Shown here piece by piece: positions 5,533 through 60,708 of a stretch of 64,000 bases of DNA (position 1 is the stretch's first letter; each line of letters begins with the position of its first letter). The notes under the pieces were generated by a model. That model saw only the letters and a program-made list of their open reading frames with translations, was not told the origin of the DNA and did no database searches. The stretch is from Halalkalicoccus sp. CGA53. GTDB taxonomy: Archaea; Halobacteriota; Halobacteria; Halobacteriales; Halalkalicoccaceae. The stretch covers positions 1,860,001-1,924,000 of the forward strand of contig NZ_CP144125.1 in assembly GCF_036429475.1 (NCBI RefSeq). Reading direction: 5' to 3'. Position numbers and translations under genes: made by a program.

Positions 5533-5707
5533 GTTCGTCTCCCGTCGGAGGTGCGTGTGGTATAGTGACATAGCTACCGCGTGCAATCGGCGCAAGCGGT
5601 GACCGATCCGCAGCCCCCGGGCACGGATCACCGGCTGCAACGGAGCCGATCGGTCACGGACGGCGGATACCCGGGCTCGGACGCGACGGACGCGTCCGAG
5701 CCCGCTC

Positions 5708-5790
5708 ATACGGACTGCTGCAGTCTGTACCGCCCGGACCGGTACCTGCCTCTCGGTCCGAGCGGTAACCAGGTACAGCAGTCCGTATCA
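5708..5790 (-). repeat. Structured 83-bp repeat, copy A, at the stop codon of the FilR1-type gene
   Basis: Read on the minus strand, this starts with the gene's own TGA stop and continues TACGGACTGCTGTACC. It folds into one long nested hairpin. The outer stem is 13 bp (5708-5720 with 5776-5788). A middle stem pairs CTGTACC (5725-5731) with GGTACAG (5772-5778), overlapping the outer one by a few bases. An inner stem pairs CGGACCG (5735-5741) with CGGTCCG (5754-5760). A second copy with compensatory changes is at 60210-60293, also starting at a stop codon. The likely role is 3' end formation or stability of the mRNA. Confidence 0.8.
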
Positions 5791-6579
5791 GACCGCGTCC
5801 GGCGGCCCGAACGACCGCGCCTCCTCGCGGTAGGACTCGTATGTCGTCTCCGCCCACTCGCGGACCTCCCGGGAGTCGGTGTCGATCAGCACGCGCACGC
5901 TCCCGCTGTCGGGATCGTAGCCGCTGATCCCGACGCGATCGTCGAAGAGCGCGAGGCCATAGGTCGGCAGGTCGTCGTGGACGCGGATCGTGAGGTTCCC
6001 GCTCTCGATCGACTCCGAACAGTGCTCCCGGTAGGTGGAGACGACGTACCGCGCGACGCCCGGCGGGTCGACGATCTCCGTCTCCATGCCCGCCACGATC
6101 AGGCGCCGGAAGTCGTCCCGGCACGGCTCGACGAGCGCGAGGTCGAAGCCGACGAACCGGAACCGTTCGGTCCCCTCCAACAGCGTGACGAACCGGTTTA
6201 CGGGCCGATAGGGGTCCTCCGCGACGGCGACGGTCACCGTCGCGTCCGAGACCATCTCGATACTGAGGCCGTCGACATCGGCCGAGATAAGCCCCCAGAC
6301 GTCGCGGAGCGCGCGCTCGGTCTCGATCCGGTCGATCAGCTCGGCCATCCCCCCCGCGACGAACGCCCCCAGCTGTGTCGCCTCGTACCGGTGGCCGTTC
6401 TTCTGGACCCAGCGGCGCTTTTCGAACTCACAGAGGAGCCGGCCGACCGTCGAGGAGGAGGCCTCCGTCAGCTCCTGAAGCTCCCTCCGACTTCGCGACG
6501 TCTCCGACAGCGCCGCGAGCGCGCTCACCCGGTAAGGCGAGCGCGCGAGGAACTCGATGTCACTGAGCGTCGAGTCCAT
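5788..6579 (-). CDS. FilR1-type winged-helix transcriptional regulator
   Basis: 263 aa. The N-terminus (about 1-75) is a winged HTH: IEFLARSPYRVSALAALSETSRSR, then SSSTVGRLLCEFEKRRWV. The C-terminal part matches the FilR1 middle domain (DUF1724) common in haloarchaea and methanogens, with features such as VCRDDFRRLIVAGMETEIV-like and VHDDLPTYGLALFDDRVGISGY. MDSTLSDIEFLARSP is the usual opening of the family, so I start at 6579 and not at the ATG at 6594. The gene is upstream of and co-directional with the FAD oxidase set, separated by repeat copy A, so control of that set is possible but unproven. Confidence 0.85.
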   Translation of the reverse strand: MDSTLSDIEFLARSPYRVSALAALSETSRSRRELQELTEASSSTVGRLLCEFEKRRWVQKNGHRYEATQLGAFVAGGMAELIDRIETERALRDVWGLISADVDGLSIEMVSDATVTVAVAEDPYRPVNRFVTLLEGTERFRFVGFDLALVEPCRDDFRRLIVAGMETEIVDPPGVARYVVSTYREHCSESIESGNLTIRVHDDLPTYGLALFDDRVGISGYDPDSGSVRVLIDTDSREVREWAETTYESYREEARSFGPPDAV

Positions 6580-6711
6580 GGTAGCGGCTAACATGGTACC
6601 AGTACACGTGCAGTCGACATAGTTATTCGGACCTCCCTACTCGCCGATAACACGCCTCTCGCCGCCGAGCAGCGGGGAGTTCCCGTTCGCGAGTCGGACG
6701 GGCGGACCGAC

Positions 6712-51031: not shown

Positions 51032-51156
51032 GTGGTTGGTGTGGTCGTCCCCGGTGGGGACTGTGTCGGGGGTTTCGTACGGATCGCTGTAACCGTTTAC
51101 CGGTGCAACCGAATGCAGGTTGTGGTTGCGCCGGAAATGACTGACAGCGGTCCGTG

Positions 51157-51621
51157 TCAGTCCCCGTCGTCGACGTAGTCGACTACGAGCACGGGGACGT
51201 GCGTCGAGCGCAACGTCCGCTCGGTGACGCTCCCGAGCAGCGCACGGCGCACGCCCGAGCGCCCGTGACTGCCCATCACGACGAGGTCGATCCCCTTCTC
51301 CTCGGCGTAGTCGGCGATCACCCTGTGCGGGCGGCCCCCGGCGTGACGCTCGGCGACGGTCAGCCCGAGTTCCTCGGCACGCTCTTTCACGTGCCCCGTC
51401 GCCTCCTCGGCGTCCCGCCTGAGGTCGGTCATTCCCTGGAAGTTGCCCTGTTCGATCCGGTCGAGCTGTTCGGTGCCGAGGCTGTAGGCGATCGCGTCGG
51501 TGTCGGCGACGTAGAGCGCGTGTACCTCCGCACCGTACTGTTCGGCCAGCGAGAGCGCGTGATCGACGGCGACCTCCGCGACCCTGCTTCCGTCCGTCGG
51601 AACGAGTATTCGTTCGTACAT
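51157..51621 (-). CDS. Universal stress protein (UspA)
   Basis: 154 aa. It begins MYERILVPTDGSRVAEVAVDHALSLAEQYGAEVHALYVAD and has the ATP-binding loop VMGSHGRSGVRRALLGSVTERTLRSTHVPVLVV (GxxG, nine residues, G[S]). It lies 3 nt downstream of the symporter, hence in the acetate transport operon, as often seen where DUF4212/SSS permeases and UspA go together in haloarchaea. Confidence 0.92.
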   Translation of the reverse strand: MYERILVPTDGSRVAEVAVDHALSLAEQYGAEVHALYVADTDAIAYSLGTEQLDRIEQGNFQGMTDLRRDAEEATGHVKERAEELGLTVAERHAGGRPHRVIADYAEEKGIDLVVMGSHGRSGVRRALLGSVTERTLRSTHVPVLVVDYVDDGD

Positions 51622-53787: not shown

Positions 53788-55773
53788 TCACTCGCCCCTG
53801 ACCTTCGACTCGATGTCCGAGACGACCTCGGGGTTGCGAAGCGTGCTCGTGTCGCCGAGTTCCTCGCCGTTCGCGATGTCCTCGAGCAGCCGACGCATGA
53901 TCTTCCCGGAGCGCGTCTTCGGCAGCTCCGGCGTGAAGATCACCTCCTCGGGCCGCGCGATCGGGCCGATCGCGTCCTCGACGCCCTCGACGATCTGCTC
54001 TCTGAGGCTCTCGTCGTCCTCGTGGCCCTCCTCCGTGATGACGTAGGCGTAGACCGCCTCGCCCTTCAGCTCGTGGGTGCCTCCGACGACGGCGGCCTCC
54101 GCCACCCCGGGAACCCCGACGATCGCCGACTCGATCTCCATCGTCCCCAGCCGGTGCCCCGAAACGTTGATCACGTCGTCGACCCGTCCGAGGATCGTGA
54201 TGTACCCGTCGGAATCGACCTTCGCACCGTCCTCGGGGAAGTAGATCCAGCTGTCGGAGTCGGGGTCGGAGTACTCTTCCCAGTACTCGGAGAGAAAGCG
54301 CTCGTCGTTCTTATAGAGCGTCCGGAGCATCCCCGGCCAGGGTCTGTTCACCGTGAGGTAGCCCGCACCCTCCTCGACCGGCTCGCCGGAGACGTCGACG
54401 ACCTGCGCTCCGATCCCGGGCAGCGGCGGCCCGGCGGAGCCGGGTTTCATCGTCCCGATCCCGGGGAGGGTGGTGATCATCATTCCTCCCGTTTCGGTCT
54501 GCCACCAGGTGTCGACGACCGGACACTCCTCGTTCCCGATGTGCGTGTAGTACCACTTCCACGCGCGTGGGTTGATCGGCTCGCCCACGGTTCCTAGAAG
54601 GCGCAGCGACGAGAGGTCGTGTCGGTCGGGGTACTCCGCACCCCACTTCATGAACGCACGGATCGCCGTCGGTGCCGTGTAGAGCTGTGTCGCGTCGTAC
54701 TCGTCGGCGATCTCCCAGAGGCGGTCGCGGTCGGGGTAGTCCGGCGTCCCCTCGTACATCAGGGTGGTGGTGCCGAGCGCGAGCGGCCCGTAGACGATGT
54801 AGGAGTGGCCCGTTATCCACCCGATGTCCGCCGCACACCAGTAGGTGTCCTCGGGCTTCACGTCCAGTACTGCATGACTGGTCCACGCCGCGTACGAGAG
54901 ATAGCCACCCGTGGTGTGTTTCACGCCCTTCGGGGTACCCGTCGTCCCCGACGTGTACATGATGAACAGCATGTCCTCCGCGTCTCTGGTGACGGGTTCG
55001 ACCTCCGCGCCCGACTGCTCGGCGACCAGATCGGCGTAGTCGTGCTGACCCTCGTCGAGGTCGTGGTCCAGTTCGTCGCCCAGCCGATCGACGACGACCG
55101 TCGTCGTCCCGTGGTCGACGTTCGAGAGCCCCTTGTTCGACTTCGAGAGGTGATCGAGCGCGTCGCCGCGGCGGTAGTAGCCGTCACACGTGATCAGGTA
55201 CTCGCTGTCGGCGGCGTTCATCCGCGTCGCGAGCGCGTCCGCCGAAAAGCCCGCGAACACCACCGAGTGTGGCGCGCCGATCCGCGCACACGAAAGCATC
55301 GCGATGGGAAGTTCGGGAACCATCGGGAGGTAGACGGTGACGACGTCGTCCTCGTCGACGCCGAGCTCTCGCAGGGCCGCCGCGAACTCGTTGACCTCGC
55401 GGTGGAGCTCCTCGTACGTGTACGTCCGCGTCTCGTCGGTCGGCTCGCCGACCCACTCGATCGCGGCCTCGTCGCCCCGTCCCGCCTCGAGGTGTCGGTC
55501 GAGACAGTTGTACGAGGCGTTGAGCTCGCCGCCGACGAACCACTCGTAGAACGGTTCGTTCGAGTCGTCGAGAACGGTGTCGTGCTCCGTCTCCCAGTCG
55601 AGTAAGTCGGCCGCCTCCTCCCAGCACGCCGGCCACTCCTCCTCGAATCGCTCGTAGATCCCCGGGTCGCTCACGTTCGCCTGCTCCGTGAACGATTCCG
55701 GCGGGTCGAACGCGTCCTGTTCGACGAGCCGTGCCTCGAGCTCTCCCGACTCCGGTGTGTCGTCCTCTGCCAT
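53788..55773 (-). CDS. acs: Acetyl-CoA synthetase, copy 1
   Basis: 661 aa. AMP-forming acyl-adenylate family: P-loop-like YTSGTTGTPKGVKHTTGG (about 269-286), WWQTETGGMMITTLPG, GRVDDVINVSGHRLGT, and the acylating lysine in PKTRSGKIMRRLL near the C-terminus. It makes acetyl-CoA from acetate. Being first in the operon with DUF4212 and symporter, it is linked to acetate uptake. Long parts of the DNA are identical to copy 2 (58188-60149) with divergent blocks between. A palindromic element lies about 50-120 bp upstream of the start. Confidence 0.94.
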   Translation of the reverse strand: MAEDDTPESGELEARLVEQDAFDPPESFTEQANVSDPGIYERFEEEWPACWEEAADLLDWETEHDTVLDDSNEPFYEWFVGGELNASYNCLDRHLEAGRGDEAAIEWVGEPTDETRTYTYEELHREVNEFAAALRELGVDEDDVVTVYLPMVPELPIAMLSCARIGAPHSVVFAGFSADALATRMNAADSEYLITCDGYYRRGDALDHLSKSNKGLSNVDHGTTTVVVDRLGDELDHDLDEGQHDYADLVAEQSGAEVEPVTRDAEDMLFIMYTSGTTGTPKGVKHTTGGYLSYAAWTSHAVLDVKPEDTYWCAADIGWITGHSYIVYGPLALGTTTLMYEGTPDYPDRDRLWEIADEYDATQLYTAPTAIRAFMKWGAEYPDRHDLSSLRLLGTVGEPINPRAWKWYYTHIGNEECPVVDTWWQTETGGMMITTLPGIGTMKPGSAGPPLPGIGAQVVDVSGEPVEEGAGYLTVNRPWPGMLRTLYKNDERFLSEYWEEYSDPDSDSWIYFPEDGAKVDSDGYITILGRVDDVINVSGHRLGTMEIESAIVGVPGVAEAAVVGGTHELKGEAVYAYVITEEGHEDDESLREQIVEGVEDAIGPIARPEEVIFTPELPKTRSGKIMRRLLEDIANGEELGDTSTLRNPEVVSDIESKVRGE

Positions 55774-55826: not shown

Positions 55827-55890
55827 AAAATACACCGCCGCCTGGATACACTATCCCTGTTCCCCTTGGAACGAAAGGTCGGTGTATTTT
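55827..55890 (-). promoter_or_regulatory. Inverted-repeat operator candidate upstream of acs1
   Basis: AAAATACACCG (55827-55837) and its exact complement CGGTGTATTTT (55880-55890) are 11-bp arms 42 bp apart. They lie upstream of a TATA-like TTTAGTAC (minus strand, 55803-55810) and the acs1 ATG at 55773. The location suits an activator site; the Bat-type gene next door is a natural candidate to bind it. A related CACCGCCGAAATTA follows at about 55899-55912. Confidence 0.5.
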
Positions 55891-58187: not shown

Positions 58188-60149
58188 TCACTCCCGGTTC
58201 GTGCTCTCTATCTCGCCGACGACCTCGGGGTTGCGAAGCGTGCTCGTGTCGCCGAGTTCCTCGCCGTTCGCGATGTCCTCGAGCAGCCGACGCATGATCT
58301 TCCCGGAGCGCGTCTTCGGCAGCTCCGGCGTGAAGATCACCTCCTCGGGCCGCGCGATCGGGCCGATCGCGTCCTCGACGCCCTCGACGATCCGGTCGGT
58401 GAGCGCGGACGAGGGCTCCTGGCCGCTCTCGGCGCTCACGTACGCGTAGACGGCGCCCTCGCCCCCAGACGAGCTACCACCGACGACGGCGGCCTCCGCC
58501 ACCCCGGGAACCCCGACGATCGCCGACTCGATCTCCATCGTCCCCAGCCGGTGCCCCGAGACGTTGATCACGTCGTCGACCCGTCCGAGGATCGTGATGT
58601 ACCCGTCGGAATCGACCTTCGCACCGTCGCCGGAGACGTACGACCACTCGCCCGCCTCCTCGCGCCAGTACTCGGAGAGAAAACGCTCGTCGTCGCGGTA
58701 GAGGGTGCGCATCATCCCCGGCCACGGCCGTTCGAGGGTGAGTGCCCCGGCCCGCCCGGGATCGGCCTCCTCGCCCATCGCGTCGCGAACCCCGGCCTCG
58801 ATTCCGGGAAGCGCGAAGCCGGCCGCACCCGGGCGCATCGGGTCGACGCCGGGGAGGGTGGTGATCATCATTCCTCCCGTTTCGGTCTGCCACCAGGTGT
58901 CGACGACCGGACACTCCTCGTTCCCGATGTGCGTGTAGTACCACTTCCACGCGCGTGGGTTGATCGGTTCGCCCACCGTGCCCAAGAGCCGGAGCGACGA
59001 GAGGTCGTGTCGGTCGGGGTACTCCGCACCCCACTTCATGAACGCACGGATCGCCGTCGGTGCCGTGTAGAAGACGTCGACGGCGTTCCGGTCGACGATC
59101 CGCCAGATCCGGTCGCGGTCGGGGTAGTCCGGCGTCCCCTCGTACATCAGGGTGGTGGTGCCGAGCGCGAGCGGCCCGTAGACGATGTAGGAGTGGCCCG
59201 TTATCCACCCGATGTCCGCCGCACACCAGTAGGTGTCCTCCGGGGTGAGGTCGAGGACGGCCCGGGCGGTCCACGCCGCGTACGAGAGATAGCCACCCGT
59301 GGTGTGTTTCACGCCCTTCGGGGTGCCCGTCGTCCCCGACGTGTACATGACGAACAGCATGTCCTCCGCGTCTCTGGTGACGGGTTCGATCCGCTCGGCG
59401 GCGTGAGCGTCGCACAGATCGGCGTAGTCGTGCTGTCGCGCCTCGAGAACGTGCGGGAGCGTCTCGCCCAGCCGATCGACGACGACCGTCTCCACCCCGT
59501 GATCGAGGGAGAACAGCGCGTTGTCCGCCTTCGCCTTCTGGTTGAACGCGTCGCCGCGGCGGTAGTAGCCGTCACACGTGATCAGGTACTCGCTGTCGGC
59601 GGCGTTCATCCGCGTCGCGAGCGCGTCCGCCGAAAAGCCCGCGAACACCACCGAGTGTGGCGCGCCGATCCGCGCACACGAAAGCATCGCGATGGGAAGT
59701 TCGGGAACCATCGGGAGGTAGACGGTGACGACGTCGTCCTCGTCGACGCCGAGCTCTCGCAGGGCCGCCGCGAACTCGTTGACCTCGCGGTGGAGCTCCT
59801 CGTACGTGTACGTCCGCGTCTCCCCGAGTTTCCCCTCCCAGGTGAGCGCTGCGTGGGTCTTCCTGCCGGCCTCGAGGTGTCGGTCGAGGCAGTTGTACGA
59901 GGCGTTGAGTTCGCCGCCGACGAACCACTCGTAGAACGGTTCGTTCGAGTCGTCGAGAACGGTGTCGTGCTCCGTCTCCCAGTCGAGTAAGTCGGCCGCC
60001 TCCTCCCAGCACGCCGGCCACTCCTCCTCGAATCGCTCGTAGATCCCCGGGTCGCTCACGTTCGCCCCCTCGACGAACGACGGGGGCGGGTCGATCAGCT
60101 CGCGACCCGAGAGGCGTACGTCGAAGCCCGGTCCCGCCCCCTCTACCAT
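58188..60149 (-). CDS. acs: Acetyl-CoA synthetase, copy 2
   Basis: 653 aa, the same fold and motifs as copy 1 (YTSGTTGTPKGVKHTTGG, GRVDDVINVSGHRLGT, PKTRSGKIMRR). The N-terminal 30 residues, several middle blocks and the last residues differ from copy 1, while most of the rest is identical at the DNA level. The likely product is acetyl- or another short-chain acyl-CoA; substrate may differ through the variable blocks. It is followed after about 60 bp by repeat copy B on the other side of its start. Confidence 0.93.
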   Translation of the reverse strand: MVEGAGPGFDVRLSGRELIDPPPSFVEGANVSDPGIYERFEEEWPACWEEAADLLDWETEHDTVLDDSNEPFYEWFVGGELNASYNCLDRHLEAGRKTHAALTWEGKLGETRTYTYEELHREVNEFAAALRELGVDEDDVVTVYLPMVPELPIAMLSCARIGAPHSVVFAGFSADALATRMNAADSEYLITCDGYYRRGDAFNQKAKADNALFSLDHGVETVVVDRLGETLPHVLEARQHDYADLCDAHAAERIEPVTRDAEDMLFVMYTSGTTGTPKGVKHTTGGYLSYAAWTARAVLDLTPEDTYWCAADIGWITGHSYIVYGPLALGTTTLMYEGTPDYPDRDRIWRIVDRNAVDVFYTAPTAIRAFMKWGAEYPDRHDLSSLRLLGTVGEPINPRAWKWYYTHIGNEECPVVDTWWQTETGGMMITTLPGVDPMRPGAAGFALPGIEAGVRDAMGEEADPGRAGALTLERPWPGMMRTLYRDDERFLSEYWREEAGEWSYVSGDGAKVDSDGYITILGRVDDVINVSGHRLGTMEIESAIVGVPGVAEAAVVGGSSSGGEGAVYAYVSAESGQEPSSALTDRIVEGVEDAIGPIARPEEVIFTPELPKTRSGKIMRRLLEDIANGEELGDTSTLRNPEVVGEIESTNRE

Positions 60150-60209
60150 GTGGGCCTGTCAGGGCGAGTGGCGTGATAAGCCTTGACGCTAATCCGGGAG
60201 AGGGGGCTC

Positions 60210-60293
60210 GTACGGACTGCTCTACGTCCGTACCGCTCAGACCGGGACCCGCTTCTCGGTCTGATCGGGTAACAGGTACGGCGGTCCGTATCA
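60210..60293 (-). repeat. Structured repeat, copy B, at the stop codon of the BsuPI-like gene
   Basis: Minus-strand sequence begins with TGATACGGACCGCCGTACC, starting with the TGA stop of the BsuPI-like gene. It aligns along its whole length to copy A (5708-5790). Stems: outer TACGGAC... 60211-60220 with 60281-60290, one G-T pair; middle CCGTACC with GGTACGG; inner TCAGACCG (60237-60244) with CGGTCTGA (60257-60264). In the middle and inner stems base changes relative to copy A are compensated on the partner strand. Confidence 0.8.
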
Positions 60294-60626
60294 ATCGACC
60301 GACACCGTCGTCCGCGCCTCGCACGAACGGTCGGGACGGTCGAGGACCGCCCGCGCCTGGTAGTCGCCGGCCGGCGGGTCCTCCCAGGTGGTCTCGTAGC
60401 GTTTCGTCTCGCCGGGTTCGAGCGTCTCCGAGCGGAGGACCTGTGTGAACATCCGCCCGTCGCTGTACCGCCAGCGCTCGTCTCCCCCCTCATCGACCAG
60501 GACGTCGAACGACTGCCCGCTCCGAAAGGAGAGCTTCACGGGTTCCTCGCCGTCGTTGGTGACCGTGTAGACGAACCGGACCCCGTCCCCGTCGGCCGTC
60601 GCGTCGAGCGAACTCGAGAGCGCCAT
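60291..60626 (-). CDS. BsuPI-like proteinase-inhibitor-domain protein
   Basis: 111 aa. The immunoglobulin-like BsuPI fold is suggested by FVYTVTNDGEEPVKLSFRSGQSFDVLV, RWRYSDGRMFTQVLRSETLEPGETKRYETTWEDPPAGDYQARAVL. No signal peptide is present, so it works inside the cell. Bacterial BsuPI inhibits intracellular serine protease; the role in archaea is unknown. Its stop codon is the first base triplet of repeat copy B. Confidence 0.85.
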   Translation of the reverse strand: MALSSSLDATADGDGVRFVYTVTNDGEEPVKLSFRSGQSFDVLVDEGGDERWRYSDGRMFTQVLRSETLEPGETKRYETTWEDPPAGDYQARAVLDRPDRSCEARTTVSVD

Positions 60627-60708
60627 AGGCGTGCTGGGACCGCGAGACACAAAAGTTCGACCGCACCCTGACCGCCACCGCTTTTTGTCCGTGGCGCGTA
60701 GCGCGGGC

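Follow-up and report, generated by a model that had tools for sequence, protein, structure and literature searches.

The window analysed here is a stretch of 64,000 nucleotides from the genome of Halalkalicoccus sp. CGA53 (contig NZ_CP144125.1, positions 1,860,001 to 1,924,000 of the forward strand), and it contains three copies of a short palindromic repeat, which we call A, B and C. An earlier inspection of the window, the sequence-only reading, had described copies A and B, while copy C is absent from it. The copies and the neighbouring genes are listed below, with coordinates counted from the first letter of the window.

5706..5790, minus strand: copy A (covariance model match of 96.9 bits)
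5788-5790 and 5706-5708, minus strand: direct triplets of copy A, both TGA on the minus strand
5788..6591, minus strand: host gene of copy A, encoding a FilR1-like regulator, whose TGA stop is the end triplet of copy A
51075..51159, plus strand: copy C (found by DNA comparison within the window; covariance model match of 61.5 bits)
51075-51077 and 51157-51159, plus strand: triplets of copy C, TCG and TCA respectively
51157..51621, minus strand: host gene of copy C, encoding a universal stress protein, whose TGA stop is the end triplet of copy C
58188..60149, minus strand: acetyl-CoA synthetase gene, the downstream neighbour of copy B (Pfam: PF00501, PF13193, PF16177)
60208..60293, minus strand: copy B, 86 bp with both copies of the 3-bp direct repeat (inverted-repeat arms; covariance model match G000:C2:1920208-1920293 of 83 bits)
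60208..60210, minus strand: second target triplet of copy B, TGA decayed to CGA (read from the sequence)
60211..60290, minus strand: hairpin core of copy B, 80 bp (copy alignment and direct-repeat analysis)
60291..60293, minus strand: gene-side TGA of copy B, which terminates the BsuPI gene and is at the same time one member of the target duplication (end of the open reading frame 60291-60650)
60291..60650, minus strand: host gene of copy B, encoding a BsuPI-domain protein of 119 amino acids (Pfam: PF12690, E 6e-30)

In the DNA comparison within the window, copies A and B share 81% identity over 88 aligned columns (E 3e-17), and copy C is a weaker match than these two. Both A and B are predicted to fold far better as RNA than their dinucleotide shuffles, with z-scores of -7.7 and -3.9, respectively. 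The acetyl-CoA synthetase gene starts 58 bp past copy B and has the same orientation as the BsuPI host gene. It has a paralogue at 53788-55773, about 4.4 kb apart, with 86-87% DNA identity over long stretches, and of the two genes only the one at 58188-60149 has the repeat upstream. Upstream of the paralogue, at 55827-55890, there is a perfect 11-bp inverted repeat (AAAATACACCG / CGGTGTATTTT) with arms 42 nt apart, which is possibly an operator.

A DNA search of the whole genome (4.04 Mb, two contigs) gave 49 matches, and with a covariance model derived from 27 of the genome's copies we detected about 61 distinct copies, including the three in the window, nearly all of them 84-87 bp long. Being palindromic, most copies were matched on both strands. 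All copies listed for this genome are located on contig C2; contig C1 (about 280 kb) has none. The 80-bp core is an imperfect hairpin, composed of a 15-bp outer stem, a 4/4 internal loop, a 15-bp inner stem and a loop of 11-12 nt, and C-C and G-G mismatches in the internal loop are common throughout the element family. The predicted fold energy is -64 kcal/mol for the family consensus and -38 kcal/mol for copy B, as expected for copies that decay from a master hairpin.

The sequence-only reading had placed copy B at 60210-60293 and had interpreted matched base changes between copies A and B as covariation, and thus as a sign of selection on RNA (or cruciform) pairing. The location was right, although the true limits, 60208-60293, are slightly wider and include both flanking triplets. 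The stems it quoted are present in copy A (CTGTACC at 5725 with GGTACAG at 5772, CGGACCG at 5735 with CGGTCCG at 5754) as well as in copy B (CCGTACC at 60228 with GGTACGG at 60275, CAGACCG at 60238 with CGGTCTG at 60257). The base differences between the two copies are also as described, but the inference of covariation fails over the 27 copies. Additional copies without significant covariation had been named as what would speak against it, and in this genome covariation is not above chance. With the two-stem structure on the 27-copy alignment, 6 pairs were changed on both sides, versus 5.2 in shuffles, and the covariation score equals that of the shuffles. In the quoted middle stem, left-arm positions 13-19 are paired with 60-66, a minor alternative to the pairing of the consensus. 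At the variable pair of this stem, 18 of the 27 copies have U-G, six have U-A as in copy A, two have C-G as in copy B and one is unpaired. Since U-G is the commonest state and in none of the 27 copies have both of its bases changed, A and B each depart from this wobble pair on one side only.

We also ran an independent covariation test on an end-anchored alignment, using mutual information corrected for background. Among the copies of this genome, one of the top 30 column pairs was a stem pair (p = 0.14). The stem pairs gave p = 6e-6 for all 145 copies, including those of other haloarchaea, and p = 2e-7 with 8 of the top 30 column pairs when only the other genomes were used. Stem covariation across the divergent haloarchaeal subfamilies shows that the hairpin is conserved between them and was constrained somewhere in the history of the element. 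The idea that the stem pairing is under constraint thus holds across subfamilies in other haloarchaea and not within this genome.

The pairing could also be a product of mutation and not of selection, if quasi-palindrome correction by template switching in replication had matched the arms. Such correction is a known process for long quasi-palindromes, and the copies at one site in two Natrinema-like genomes (L067 and L188) differ in a matched way in the two arms (TGTAA..TTACA vs TGTCC..GGACA), for which independent insertion, conversion or template switching are possible causes. However, the arms in the Halalkalicoccus genome are not homogenised, as many mismatches remain uncompensated and double changes are not in excess, and the frequent internal-loop mismatches speak against such a correction as well, so we regard it as rather improbable.

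The hairpin core is flanked by triplets that are direct repeats. In the Halalkalicoccus genome the two triplets are identical as direct repeats in 30 of 61 copies and as inverted repeats in none of the 61, compared with a mean of 13.7 identical pairs and a maximum of 26 in 20,000 permutations. Their middle bases are G..G in 32 copies, C..C in 21 and C..G in one. The pairs seen are TGA..TGA, TCA..TCA and TAA..TAA, or pairs with one decayed member such as TGA..CGA and TCG..TCA, of which TGA..CGA occurs in 12 of 27 left-flush copies. Identical end triplets were also found in 18 of 20 copies of G032, a genome from another family, and in 40 of 49 copies from Natrinema, Natronorubrum and Haloterrigena, where no inverted pair was seen. 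In all three sets the flanking triplet is nearly always TGA or TCA, and the target prefers a C before the triplet and a G after it. We also considered whether the triplets belong to the inverted repeat and rejected this, since they are direct and since the empty site of one TAA..TAA copy has a single TAA.

This empty site came from a search in which 16 joined flanks were queried against relatives and contiguous matches were found. At L091 two congeners have GGGGAC-TAA-GCC and our genome has GGGGAC-TAA-element-TAA-GCC, with the triplet duplicated and nothing else added. The element is also missing in at least one congener at L002, L007, L025, L022, L010, L027 and L009, and most of the tested sites are empty in congeners. 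L003 is common to this genome, which has a full copy, and to G001, which keeps 28 bp (TGA-TACGGACGTACAGCAGTCCGTA-TGA) that look as if the rest had been deleted between two TACGGAC repeats. Remnants of 27-28 bp were noted in L108 (about 1503-1530) and L155, one of them at the site of the full copy L003, and are consistent with the TACGGAC direct-repeat deletion. Furthermore, L104 contains a nested pair (1472-1639), apparently a different subfamily inside a copy of the element, and in L216 (2096-2264) two elements lie back to back with one TCA in common, as if the second had landed in the duplication of the first.

With strict filters, matches were found in 52 of the 194 genomes of the order and in 27 of its 64 genera. 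The mobile hairpin is common in haloarchaea, with a patchy distribution in which its presence differs widely within genera, and matches were also found on haloarchaeal plasmids. Two patterns gave no matches in viral contigs, and there was no match in the phage collection. The pattern derived from the Halalkalicoccus consensus had no matches in the contigs of other genomes, and a G032-type pattern did give matches. For an orthologous comparison we used the five sites common to G032 and N. ejinorense, a small sample in which identity was 91.9% in the core, 94.2% at third codon positions, 93.8% in the non-gene flank and 98.6% at first and second codon positions. Change in the core is therefore no slower than at near-neutral sites.

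The copies are strongly associated with stop codons. They lie exactly on the stop codon of a gene in 38 of 61 cases in the Halalkalicoccus genome, in 18 of 20 in G032 and in 31 of 49 in the named species, where calls were made from open reading frames and a codon-composition test, that is by simple open reading frame criteria except at three annotated sites. These three sites are in Natrinema thermotolerans, where the DJ-1/PfpI coding sequence ends on the end triplet of the element in the public annotation, and in Natronorubrum bangense, where the Cbf5 and PhzF coding sequences do. Considering all copies examined, 106 of 162 are flush on a stop, which is TGA in 105 cases, TAA in one and TAG in none; the genes predicted in the window use TGA 33 times, TAA 6 times and TAG 19 times. 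As a neutral expectation, 33 of the 190 non-coding or stop TSA sites in the window are stops (17%), against which the binomial p is 3e-15 for the Halalkalicoccus genome, 2e-12 for G032 and 6e-13 for the named species. Were survival limited to insertions directly downstream of stops, about 40-50% would be expected, and against this expectation the excess is clear only in G032 (18 of 20; p = 2e-4 vs 50%). The downstream neighbours have the same direction in 18 cases and not in 18, which led us to reject a terminator between convergent genes as a general rule. One copy of G032 (L173) does lie between convergent genes; its two end triplets, TGA and TCA, are each the stop of one gene.

The exact position at stop codons, the stable folds and the stem covariation across subfamilies would also suit a cis-acting RNA at mRNA 3' ends, acting on stability, as a terminator or as a regulator, with the pairing selected at each locus. 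Such a role is nevertheless very unlikely, because covariation is missing within the genome, congeners lack the element at most of the tested sites, downstream neighbours point in the same direction in half of the cases, the end triplets are direct and not inverted and no Rfam family reaches its gathering score in the window. Copies that stay in place change about as fast as third codon positions do, and the element is inserted DNA that duplicates 3 bp of its target, has empty sites in relatives and turns over rapidly, so the selection on RNA pairing proposed by the sequence-only reading is not upheld. A DNA-level hairpin or dyad required for mobility explains the pairing better, and the covariation between subfamilies, together with neutral-like divergence at shared sites, fits a mobility constraint and not a role of the RNA at the individual loci. 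When two copies of a palindromic mobile element are compared, compensatory changes are weak evidence for a functional RNA, and a hairpin of this kind directly behind a gene can wrongly be taken for a terminator or a 3'-UTR RNA.

The repeats are very probably copies of a short non-autonomous MITE-like mobile DNA element of haloarchaea, whose movement we infer from presence and absence between species. The data show insertion at a TSA triplet, usually TGA or TCA and in rare cases TAA, and duplication of that triplet. Most copies are in the TGA stop of a gene, where the duplication leaves the gene-side stop intact while the other copy decays, for example from TGA to CGA. The element is thus a clear case of mobile DNA that occupies stop codons without harm to the gene, as the 3-bp TGA duplication restores the stop. 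In the proposed mechanism, a transposase acting in trans would recognise both element ends or the folded hairpin and would cut the target with a 3-nt stagger, and insertions at stops would survive because the protein is unchanged. After insertion each copy would drift neutrally from the ideal hairpin, which would explain why the pairing is conserved between subfamilies and yet shows no covariation among the Halalkalicoccus copies.

Further targeting to stops or to gene 3' ends is conceivable. Because the 18 of 20 copies in G032 exceed even the generous neutral expectation of 50% and TAG stops are never used, we also consider, as a minor possibility, that the machinery of the mobile hairpin actively finds stop codons and makes insertion harmless by design. 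This may involve, for example, insertion as a folded single strand, or a link to mRNA 3' ends or to the termination of translation. In the papers that could be searched, with most subscription journals and ISfinder beyond reach, we found no account of the element or of similar ones inserting into stop codons.

Like a MITE, the element is short, non-coding and multicopy, has terminal inverted repeats and a patchy distribution and shows target-site duplication (3-bp direct repeats, and an empty site with a single triplet). It differs from a MITE in its strong association with stop codons, in that no parent transposon with shared ends was found in searches of the Halalkalicoccus genome and N. ejinorense, and in that conservation across subfamilies covers the whole 80-bp hairpin, including its inner stem and the sizes of its loops. 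The conserved inner stem and the fixed length are a counterpoint to the MITE reading, as only the ends should matter in a MITE. Insertion sequences of the IS1031 and IS427 groups of the IS5 family are known to duplicate short 3-bp targets of the TNA type. The element resembles them in its TNA-type target and might be related to them, but neither such a transposase nor an insertion sequence with the ends of the element was found in the Halalkalicoccus genome.

SMR-A and SMR-B of Haloquadratum walsbyi are haloarchaeal repeats of about 80-110 bp with tens of copies and a mobiliser that is unknown, and their inverted repeats are unrelated to known transposons (PMC3119063). They are reported without target duplication and target other mobile elements, SMR-A inserting into IS605-type transposons and PATEs (PMC3119063). 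The element described here is similar in host group, size, inverted repeats and copy number, but it makes a 3-bp target duplication, and most of its copies are at gene stop codons, with few nested or abutting cases. REP and REPIN sequences, which have a tetranucleotide tag and are associated with RAYTs, which are HUH transposases (PMC3733652, PMC3116915), are likewise short dispersed palindromes just outside genes, but no target duplication is expected for REPs. It is hardly credible that the element is a REP/REPIN-type or IS200/IS605-type palindrome or a PATE, since, although it is palindromic, multicopy, outside the coding frame and often downstream of genes, and although hairpins are substrates of HUH enzymes (PMC3733652), it has a clear 3-bp duplication, which IS605-type elements and PATEs do not make (PMC3119063), and its consensus ends are without a GTAG-type tag.

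In view of the 3-bp duplication, a transposase of the DDE type is more plausible than an HUH enzyme. An end-pattern search of the Halalkalicoccus genome yielded no longer element with the same ends, and none was evident among the end matches in N. ejinorense. DDE_Tnp_1_2 (Pfam: PF13586) is absent from the Halalkalicoccus genome, and none of its 15 DDE_Tnp_1 (Pfam: PF01609) loci has matching inverted ends together with TSA duplications. Contig C1 carries 11 of these 15 DDE_Tnp_1 matches.
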